A DNA stretch of 34,355 nt from Nitrospirota bacterium (lineage in GTDB: Bacteria; Nitrospirota; Nitrospiria; Nitrospirales; Nitrospiraceae), in the NCBI GenBank assembly GCA_013388555.1, contig JACAFD010000071.1:1-34355 (forward strand). Direction: 5' to 3'. Below, piece after piece: positions 9,680 through 13,377 of this stretch. Both the position numbers and the translations under genes were made by a program. How positions within the stretch are numbered: the stretch's first letter is position 1; every line of letters begins with the position of its first letter. The notes under the pieces were generated by a model that ran no database searches, was not told the origin of the DNA, and was given only the letters and a program-made list of their open reading frames with translations.

Positions 9680-11080
9680 CTACACGGTTTCGAAGGGAGA
9701 AGCAATGCCCTGGTAGGGAACCGCAGAGACTGGCAGGGGGCTTTTTTGTTGACCGGGGACCGCTTGCCCGGCATTGGGCCACGGCAGTGCGACTAATGTA
9801 TTCCAGGTCCCGCAGCGGCGGCAGCGCCCCGACCATTCAGTTGATTCTTGCTGACAGGCGGTACATACATAGGGGACGACCACACGCTTTTTGAAATGTA
9901 GAGCCTTTTTGAGTTCGACGACGGCTTCCTCCATCTGCTGCTTGCGCAGAAAGAGATTGGCCATGATCTTATGGTAGTCGACCAATTGGTCCTGTATTCC
10001 TTCAACGGTTGAGAGGATGTCAAAGGCTTCGTCGACCATCTCGAGTCGGTAGTAGAGCTTGCCTAAATAGAACTGCAGGGAGGGGTTATGCGGGTCTTGC
10101 CTGAGGGCCTCCTGATAGACACGTATAATTTCGCTGGGTTCGCCCTGTTCGAGAAAGAGTTCTTCCAATCGGTGCAGGATGATCAGACTGCGGGTCTTGG
10201 CATAGACCTTCTTGAGAATTTCTACTGCCTGCTTGTTTTTGCCTTCCCTGATCAAGATTTCACCTATGCCGATGTAGGCCGGTAGGAACGTCCTGTCTTT
10301 CTTAATGGCGCCTCGGAAGTAGCGCCGTGCCTTATCGGGGTGGCCCCGTTCCAGCAGCTGGCGTCCTACCTCGTACGTGCAGCCGGTGAGGAGATGAGCC
10401 GCATCCTGGCGTTCCGGCTCGGGCAGGTTGGCCTTGAGGAGACGATGTTGGATTTCGAGCGCCTCGCTCCATTTTTCAAGCCGGATCAACAGATCGCGCT
10501 TGCGGATGAGCGCGGTGAGGTTATCCGGTTCGATCTTGAGCATCTTGTGCAGGGTCTGCAAGGCGTCCTCATAGCGCTTGGCACCCTCCAAGTCGTTTGC
10601 CAACTCAAGCAGAATTTCGATGTTGCGGTCGTCGACACGATTCGCTCGTTGGTGGAGTCGAATCGCTTCGGTGAAGTTGCTTTCTACGCGGTAAATGTTT
10701 CCCAGCCAGAGCAGCGAGTCGACACGATTTGGATCCATGGCCAGCGCCCGCTCGAACAGGCCGATGGCTTCGACAATGCGCTTTGACATGAAGGCATGGG
10801 TACCGTCACGATGGAGTGCATCGATTTTTTCCTTGCGCCGCAACAGCCTGGTGCTGCGCCAGTTGCCGATGACATGGGCGGTCTGCCTCATGCCGACGGC
10901 TAGGGCCACAAGCACGGCGCCGACAGCCATGGAAAAGACGACGAGTGTGACAGGACTCAGCTCAAACTGGATGGAGGGGCTGGTCCTGACTGCGACCGTG
11001 CCAGGGTTCAATTCACGGAAATAACTATAGAGGAAGATCCCGGCGCTGATAAGGAAGATGGTGATGAGCAGTCGGAGCAT
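9680..11080 (-). CDS. lapB: TPR protein with C-terminal rubredoxin-like zinc ribbon, LapB/YciM-like
   Basis: N-terminal TM segments (LapA-like), multiple TPRs, C-terminal YVCTACQQESTEWSGRCRRCGTWNTL. Confidence 0.82.
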   Translation of the reverse strand: MLRLLITIFLISAGIFLYSYFRELNPGTVAVRTSPSIQFELSPVTLVVFSMAVGAVLVALAVGMRQTAHVIGNWRSTRLLRRKEKIDALHRDGTHAFMSKRIVEAIGLFERALAMDPNRVDSLLWLGNIYRVESNFTEAIRLHQRANRVDDRNIEILLELANDLEGAKRYEDALQTLHKMLKIEPDNLTALIRKRDLLIRLEKWSEALEIQHRLLKANLPEPERQDAAHLLTGCTYEVGRQLLERGHPDKARRYFRGAIKKDRTFLPAYIGIGEILIREGKNKQAVEILKKVYAKTRSLIILHRLEELFLEQGEPSEIIRVYQEALRQDPHNPSLQFYLGKLYYRLEMVDEAFDILSTVEGIQDQLVDYHKIMANLFLRKQQMEEAVVELKKALHFKKRVVVPYVCTACQQESTEWSGRCRRCGTWNTLVALPWPNAGQAVPGQQKSPLPVSAVPYQGIASPFETV

Positions 11081-11098: not shown

Positions 11099-11464
11099 TC
11101 ACGGATGCTTTTTTCGTTTCATGGACCGTGGGGCGACAGCCGATCTTGTGGCCGGCGGTTCGCCCGGGATGGCGATGCGCTTCGCGTCGGCCCACAACCG
11201 TTCGAGCGCGTAATGCTCCCGGACATCCTGTCTGAAAATATGGGCGATGACATCGCCAAAGTCTATCAGTACCCACTGAGCGGACCTTGCACCCTCAACG
11301 CTCAGCGGTTTGGAGCCGGAGCGAGAGAGGCTACTGGTGATATGGTCCGCGATGGCGCTTGCTTGACGGTCCGAATCCGCAGAGCCTATGACCAGGTAGT
11401 CGGCAACAGAGGTCAGGGGGGCTACCTGGAGGATAAGAGCCTCAGTGGCCTTTTTATCACGCAT
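11099..11464 (-). CDS. rsfS: Ribosome silencing factor RsfS (start uncertain; see finding)
   Basis: ATEALILQVAPLTSVADYLVIGSADSDRQASAIADHI...VEGARSAQWVLIDFGDVIAHIFRQDVREHYALERLWADA is a clear RsfS/Iojap core. Confidence 0.92.
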   Translation of the reverse strand: MRDKKATEALILQVAPLTSVADYLVIGSADSDRQASAIADHITSSLSRSGSKPLSVEGARSAQWVLIDFGDVIAHIFRQDVREHYALERLWADAKRIAIPGEPPATRSAVAPRSMKRKKHP

Positions 11465-11492
11465 TGCCCGGGCAATGGCGAGGGCCGTAGAC

Positions 11493-12176
11493 CTAGCTGT
11501 TTGTGCGATCGCGCTCCTCTTGGTAGAGATGATGTCGAAGTATATAGGATTCCACTAAGGGCGGCAACAGATTTGCCAGGGGGAGTCCTTGGCGGATTCG
11601 AACACGAATGTCTGATGCGGAAACTGTGCAGGGTGGTAGCCGGAGACAGGTAAGTCGTTGCTCCCCAAGAGGTACTTCGATTCGGGAAATCCGTCCCGCA
11701 TCCAGGTCCATCAGCGAAGAGGATGGAATCGGCGGAAGTAACGAAACTGCGGAAAAGGAGCGAAACGACAGACCTGGCCGGGAGAGGACGACAAAAGAGC
11801 AGAGCTGCAGTAATGCCTGAGGGTCACGCCAGGAGGGAAAATCTAGAAAGGCATCGAGCCCGATGAGGAAGAATAGTTGAGTGTGCGCCCCATACTCTTG
11901 CTGCAGTAGGCGAATGGTGTCGATGGAGTAGGACTTGCCTGGTCGGCGGATTTCCACATCCGAAATGGCAAAAGAGGGGTCTGAGGCAATGGCAAGGCGC
12001 ACCATCTCGTAGCGGTCGCGGGCTGGTGCCAGGCTGCCGTTCGGTTTATGGGGCGGGTAACTCGTGGGAATAAAGAGGATTTTGTCGAGCCCGAGGGCCT
12101 CGCGTGTCTGATGTGCAATAGCCAGGTGGCCGTTGTGCACGGGGTTAAAACTGCCGCCCAATAGGCCAAGTCGCAC
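11493..12176 (-). CDS. nadD: Nicotinate-nucleotide adenylyltransferase (GTG start chosen; ATG at 12239 is in the same frame)
   Basis: VRLGLLGGSFNPVHNGHLAIAHQTREALGLDKILFIPTSYPPHKP, SYSIDTI, LIGLDAFLDFPSW. Confidence 0.92.
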   Translation of the reverse strand: MRLGLLGGSFNPVHNGHLAIAHQTREALGLDKILFIPTSYPPHKPNGSLAPARDRYEMVRLAIASDPSFAISDVEIRRPGKSYSIDTIRLLQQEYGAHTQLFFLIGLDAFLDFPSWRDPQALLQLCSFVVLSRPGLSFRSFSAVSLLPPIPSSSLMDLDAGRISRIEVPLGEQRLTCLRLPPCTVSASDIRVRIRQGLPLANLLPPLVESYILRHHLYQEERDRTNS

Positions 12177-12177
12177 G

Positions 12178-12205
12178 CTGGGTGCTGCGTGCTGGGTGCT
12201 GGGTG
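12178..12205. repeat. Four tandem heptamers CTGGGTG-CTGCGTG-CTGGGTG-CTGGGTG
   Basis: Read directly; immediately 5' of the nadD core on the minus strand. Confidence 0.85.
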
Positions 12206-12255
12206 CGGAAGATTGAGTTGTAGAATCTTGAGCGGGCATAACTGAGCACCCAGCT

Positions 12256-13377
12256 CTACAAGATGACGAGATTGTCCCGGTGGATGACTTCTTCATATTC
12301 CTGCGGGCCTAGTTGCTGCTGGATCTCGATCGTTTTGAGCCCTTTGATTCGTGCCAAGATGTCGGAGGAGAAGTTCACGAGTCCTTTGGCGAATTCTTTG
12401 CCGTCTTGGTCAAGGCAACTGACCGCATCTCCCGCATCGAACGGACCGCTGACATCCAGAATGCCTGAAGCCAATAGGCTCTTGCCCCGTCGGGACAACG
12501 CTTCGACGGCACCAGGATCGAGCGTCAGGCTCCCTCGCGGCCTGAGTGTGAAGGCGATCCAATGTTTGCGACTGGTGAACCGGCGTTCCTTCGCGAGAAA
12601 GAGGCTGCCACCTGATCCGCCGGCTAATACTTGTGGAAGGAGGCCAGCCCTTTGCCCGTTCAAGATCAAGGTAGCCACTCCGTACTCACTGACTTTCTTG
12701 GCAGCCCGGACTTTCGTAGCCATGCCTCCGGTTCCTTCGAAAGAGCTGGAGACGCCGGCCCGCCGTTCAATTTCCTCGGTAATGTCTGGGATCAACGGAA
12801 TCAGCCTGGCTGCAGGGTTTTTGCACGGGTCCTCCGTGTACAAGCCGTCGATATCGGACAGGATGATCAGCAGCTCTGCGTCGACCAGATGGGCCACCTC
12901 GGCGGCCAGGGTATCGTTGTCCCCCACGCGGATCTCATCCACAGCAACCGTATCGTTTTCGTTGATGATGGGGATCACGCCGAATCCGATCAGCGCACTC
13001 AGGGTGTGGCGTGCATTGAGAAAGCGCCGCCGATCGGCGAGGTCGTCGTGGGTGAGTAGGATTTGTGCTACTTTGACGTCGAGCCGCTCAAACGATTTTT
13101 CGTACGCCCACATGAGACGGCTCTGGCCGACCGCCGCGGCTGCCTGCTTCACGGGGAGACTCTTGGGGTATTCAGTCAGCCCTAACTTTTTGATGCCGGA
13201 GACGATTGCACCGGAGGAAACGATCAGGACTTCACGCCCGCCTGACCGGATGGCTGCGATTTCATCCGCGAGTCGATCGATTCGTTCGGGGCGTAGGCCG
13301 GTCTCTCGAGACGCAACGAGTCTGCTCCCGATTTTGATCACGATGCGAACGGCGTGCTTTAGGAGCTGATCTCGCAT
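12256..13377 (-). CDS. proB: Glutamate 5-kinase (AAK kinase plus PUA domain)
   Basis: RIVIKIGSRLV, VSSGAIVSGIKKLGL, KQAAAAVGQSRLM, INENDTVAVDEIRVGDNDTLAAEVAHLVDAELLIILSDIDGLYTEDP; C-terminal PUA. Confidence 0.95.
   Translation of the reverse strand: MRDQLLKHAVRIVIKIGSRLVASRETGLRPERIDRLADEIAAIRSGGREVLIVSSGAIVSGIKKLGLTEYPKSLPVKQAAAAVGQSRLMWAYEKSFERLDVKVAQILLTHDDLADRRRFLNARHTLSALIGFGVIPIINENDTVAVDEIRVGDNDTLAAEVAHLVDAELLIILSDIDGLYTEDPCKNPAARLIPLIPDITEEIERRAGVSSSFEGTGGMATKVRAAKKVSEYGVATLILNGQRAGLLPQVLAGGSGGSLFLAKERRFTSRKHWIAFTLRPRGSLTLDPGAVEALSRRGKSLLASGILDVSGPFDAGDAVSCLDQDGKEFAKGLVNFSSDILARIKGLKTIEIQQQLGPQEYEEVIHRDNLVIL

Follow-up and report, generated by a model that had tools for sequence, protein, structure and literature searches.

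Locus organization

The window, a 34,355 bp stretch of Nitrospirota DNA (contig JACAFD010000071.1), carries the gene for the ribosomal silencing factor RsfS on the complementary strand, directly after nadD. The coordinates of the features are listed in Table 1. Inspection of the reading frame showed that no ATG, GTG, TTG or CTG is found between the upstream in-frame stop and the ATG at codon 16. An ATC is present 4 nt after AGGAG, preceded by AAGAGGAGCGCG, and a gene started at this codon is overlapped by nadD by 17 nt. These results agree with the sequence-only reading of the locus, which had noted the lack of a canonical start and proposed that RsfS is either short or initiated at a rare codon (ATC, or an ATT further down) as in infC, perhaps with coupling to nadD. 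The start codon of nadD itself is uncertain, owing to short imperfect repeats of the type CACCCAGCAC between proB and nadD.

Table 1. Features at the rsfS locus (positions in the window)
Position	Strand	Feature	Remarks
9680-11080	-	Gene after rsfS	TPR protein ending in a CxxC...CxxC metal-binding module
11099-11509	-	rsfS, as reinterpreted	ATC start, 136 codons plus stop
11099-11180	-	C-terminal tail of RsfS	Variable, Lys/Ala/Pro-rich
11456-11506	-	Codons 2-18 of rsfS	Predicted N-terminal helix alpha-1
11462-11464	-	Downstream ATG (codon 16)	Rejected as the start
11493-12296	-	nadD open reading frame	Stop TAG 11495-11493, inside rsfS codons 5-6
11507-11509	-	ATC start codon	AUC in mRNA
11514-11520	-	Shine-Dalgarno AGAGGAG	AGGAG at 11518-11514; GAGG (11519-11516) is the part conserved in relatives
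11555-11557	-	In-frame TAG	Bounds the rsfS frame upstream
12180-12260	-	Short imperfect repeats	Between proB and nadD

Similarity of the encoded protein to RsfS

Profile searches were carried out with both the ATC-started (136 aa) and ATG-started (121 aa) forms of the protein, and both matched RsfS in Pfam and NCBIfam. The longer form scored better (PF02410, E=1.6e-29; TIGR00090, E=1.1e-30) and covered the first profile positions, with PF02410 matched from position 2 instead of 8 and TIGR00090 from position 4 instead of 10. Matches to PF02410 and TIGR00090 were above the curated cut-offs, at 102.5 bits against 21.6 and 105.7 against 56.9. The N-termini of solved RsfS chains aligned to codons 8-16 (chain residue 7 to codon 8 in 9q40, 7 to 10 in 6sj5, and 11 to 13 in 2o5a), such that their own first residue would fall near codons 2-4 of the ATC-started frame. 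An AlphaFold model (pLDDT 84.8) has a confident helix at residues 2-18, with pLDDT of 85-96 per 10-residue block, and matched the RsfS structure 4wcw with a TM of 0.88 on target. Starting translation at the ATG would remove almost the whole of this predicted helix. The C-terminal tail varies in Nitrospira, and in locus L021 (loci are designated by L numbers) it contains repeated KKAP units.

Conservation of the ATC within the family

In order to determine if the ATC is maintained in relatives, 121 distinct loci from about 20 genera of the same GTDB family (f1) were compared. The codon at the site is ATC in 99 of these loci, 98 by automated count plus L362, which is shifted by an alignment gap and reads aggagaGTGATC, and it is preceded by a conserved GAGG or AGGAGG. 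The same ATC occurs in every same-genus locus that reaches the site (28 loci, of which L016 is masked just upstream), which excludes a sequencing error. In the other 22 loci, all in one genus (g17) as far as loci were assigned, the codon is AGC, and all 22 have GTG one codon upstream. Five ATC loci in the count, plus L362, also have this GTG; one of them (L269) is in g17, where L280, L320 and L323 still have ATC alone. The path from ATC only, to ATC plus GTG, to GTG only is therefore visible, and no locus has neither codon. The 22 GTG-started loci show that a canonical codon is tolerated, and the switch from ATC to GTG in g17 (L089, L090, L243, L249 and L306-L325), with intermediates carrying both codons or only ATC in the same genus, offers a natural comparison for the effect of the weak start. 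Most of the genomes are metagenome assemblies. Loci within genera are related, so these counts are not independent, though about 20 genera within the family agree.

Over 97 aligned ATC loci the three bases are each 100% conserved and the GAGG at -10 to -7 is 95-100% conserved, whereas positions -5 to -1 range from 47 to 67% and +7 and +8 from 46 to 53%. The possibility that ATC is conserved only because of nadD coding, with the true start at another near-cognate codon such as ACG (codon 8) or ATT (codon 13), was considered, since the ATC lies inside nadD and both codons are conserved or nearly so within the genus. However, the ATC forms the second and third base of one nadD codon (GAT 65, AAT 26, CAT 4, TAT 2) and the first base of the next (CGC 50, CGT 24, CAC 14, CGG 5, CTC 2, CCG 1, CCC 1), so that the nadD residues vary on both sides (Asp/Asn/His/Tyr, then Arg/His/Leu/Pro) while ATC does not. 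The T is a synonymous nadD third position, and is T in only 62% of comparable nadD codons upstream. Codons 8 and 13 are not conserved across the family and, by inspection, have no Shine-Dalgarno at the right distance, making this alternative very unlikely.

Ribosome binding and the downstream ATG

Duplex energy with the anti-Shine-Dalgarno was calculated as -8.6 kcal/mol before the ATC in the window, and -1.1 kcal/mol before the downstream ATG. Over 103 family loci the mean before ATC is -8.8 kcal/mol, with all loci at or below -6 and the conserved Shine-Dalgarno 6 nt upstream, while the mean before the ATG is -1.46, equal to in-gene controls at -1.6. The region around the ATC is poorly structured, at -6.9 kcal/mol versus -12.8 elsewhere, and no sequestering hairpin was found (fold z-score of +0.76 in the window).

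A short RsfS of 121 aa starting at the ATG, with upstream conservation due only to nadD coding or chance, is also very unlikely. The ATG is present in most loci of the genus and of genera g2 and g6, and the shorter form still scores as RsfS, but the ATG lacks a Shine-Dalgarno and is absent from codon 16 of L016, L033, L034 and L035, in which it cannot be the start. The stretch between the ATC and the ATG continues past the nadD stop and keeps RsfS residues: from codon 9 on, first and second codon positions are mostly held (GC-, CT-, GC-) and third positions are free, indicating that it is translated in the RsfS frame. The upstream residues are thus conserved, and of the two options in the sequence-only reading the rare start codon is supported, with ATC rather than ATT as the codon.

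Since the rsfS frame is open for about 60 nt before the nadD stop, production of a NadD-RsfS fusion by programmed frameshifting was also considered. No slippery heptamer was seen by eye, and a strong Shine-Dalgarno stands exactly before the ATC. This explanation is very unlikely, as the abnormal start remains in families with a gap or with no nadD found upstream (see below).

Start codons of rsfS in other Nitrospirota

In 100 distinct rsfS loci from the rest of the phylum, 51% have no ATG, GTG or TTG between codons -20 and +6, against 68% in the family and 13% in 60 named loci of other phyla. At the homologous start column the codons are TTA 32, ATA 22, ATG 5, CTT 4, GTA 3, GTC 3, ATC 3 and a few others. 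TTA makes up 32 of 40 Leu codons at this column, from 12 families, but only 134 of 939 (14%) in the rest of the gene, and no other Leu column with at least 15 sequences exceeds 29%. The third base is A in 62 of 85, against 22% of NTN codons elsewhere. Shine-Dalgarno energy before these codons averages -10.9 kcal/mol (86% at or below -6), against -2.8 (13%) at in-gene controls. TTA follows a GGGAGG-like Shine-Dalgarno in L165, L169, L172, L182, L196, L201, L204, L207, L211, L232 and others, from at least 12 other Nitrospirota families, suggesting an apparent UUA start codon. This rests on codon bias, Shine-Dalgarno placement and the lack of alternatives, and is less secure than the ATC start. 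In L161 and L163 (family f28) an in-frame TAA stands two codons before ATT, next to a GAGG, so only a start after that stop is possible.

It is possible, though unlikely, that the AUC start is real but only a passive low-level setting, in which ribosomes translating nadD terminate 12 nt downstream and reinitiate at AUC without IF3 control. Overlap with nadD is found in the family of the window and in families f2, f4 and f36. In f2 the nadD stop overlaps the start as AUAA or AUAG, the usual 4-nt geometry, and in L196, L216, L246 and L176 it overlaps TTA as TTAG or TTAA, as read off by eye. In much of family f32, however, nadD lies 60-165 nt upstream, and in family f23 it was not found upstream in the stretch read (up to 1.4 kb), yet TTA or ATA remains. 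The codon choice therefore does not appear to be a by-product of overlap with nadD, and canonical codons would serve coupling better.

Comparison with infC and rplT

In the same genome and genus, infC, which encodes IF3, also lacks a canonical start and has ATC after AAGAGGTG. In this genome (L063) it reads AAAGAGGTGGCCT-ATC-GTC-CCC-AAA, and the same ATC stands in all sampled members of the genus. Of 55 infC loci of the phylum, 39 have only ATC, ATA or ATT in reach of the N-terminus. The gene starts at ATC in the genus of the window and at ATC, ATA or ATT in most of the phylum (L051-L080 and L281-L305), so IF3 is probably also misannotated in these genomes. Neither this parallel nor the recurrence of abnormal starts across the phylum, including where nadD does not overlap, was foreseen in the sequence-only reading. 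By contrast, rplT, used as a control, is ATG in 50 of 50 Nitrospirota loci, which argues against a general looseness of start codons. The initiator tRNA is normal, with anticodon CAU, in the four genomes checked, and an unusual initiator tRNA was rejected for these.

Proposed initiation of RsfS at AUC

On the basis of comparative sequence evidence, RsfS in this Nitrospira is almost certainly translated from the AUC codon. We infer that ordinary initiator fMet-tRNA is positioned there by the AGGAG/GAGG Shine-Dalgarno inside the end of nadD. AUC is one of the codons that IF3 proofreads against, so initiation is expected to be weak and should rise when IF3 is scarce relative to 30S subunits, as for infC. 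RsfS binds L14/uL14 of the 50S subunit and keeps subunits apart (PMC3400551, PMC7125091). The two subunit anti-association factors, IF3 on 30S and RsfS on 50S, would then be under one translational rule, with RsfS made at a low, IF3-sensitive rate and its level moving together with that of IF3. This IF3 control is inferred and only somewhat more likely than not; a weak start could simply set a low constant level rather than regulate. Any reinitiation coupling to nadD is likewise inferred. A wider reading, slightly less likely than not, is that across the phylum rsfS is started at codons that IF3 rejects (AUC, AUA, AUU, GUA and UUA), and forms with infC a small IF3-controlled set that adjusts both factors to the free-subunit pool.

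Few bacterial genes besides infC are known with conserved abnormal starts. The infC gene itself starts at AUU in E. coli, ATC in Streptomyces and AUA in S. aureus, with IF3 autoregulation (PMC5472188, PMC13009471); as in rsfS, a near-cognate start disfavoured by IF3 is conserved with a strong Shine-Dalgarno, on a gene for a subunit anti-association factor. The sigR gene of Streptomyces has a conserved GTC start with an extensive Shine-Dalgarno that is missed by gene callers, and its repression by IF3 has been shown experimentally, although it encodes a sigma factor (PMC5472188). In S. aureus the unrelated genes ccpN (AUA) and cvfC1 (AUU), found by ribosome profiling, have conserved near-cognate starts with strong Shine-Dalgarno motifs and give about 10% of AUG activity in reporters (PMC13009471). 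While this kind of regulation is known, rsfS as its subject, its spread over a phylum, and UUA as a probable natural start codon appear to be new, no report of these having been found in the literature searched, which lacked most subscription papers.

Gene callers that allow only ATG, GTG and TTG will have cut or misplaced the start of RsfS throughout Nitrospira, a group central to nitrification, and probably across the phylum. The combination of an invariant near-cognate codon, a Shine-Dalgarno at fixed distance, and replacement only by a nearby canonical start provides a comparative recipe for finding other IF3-controlled genes. Interestingly, isolated cases were also noted outside Nitrospirota, in L130 (bacterium UBA2219), L138 (Proteobacteria S015_20) and L101 (Deltaproteobacteria), where rsfS seems to start at ATC, ATC or TTA, and CTG.
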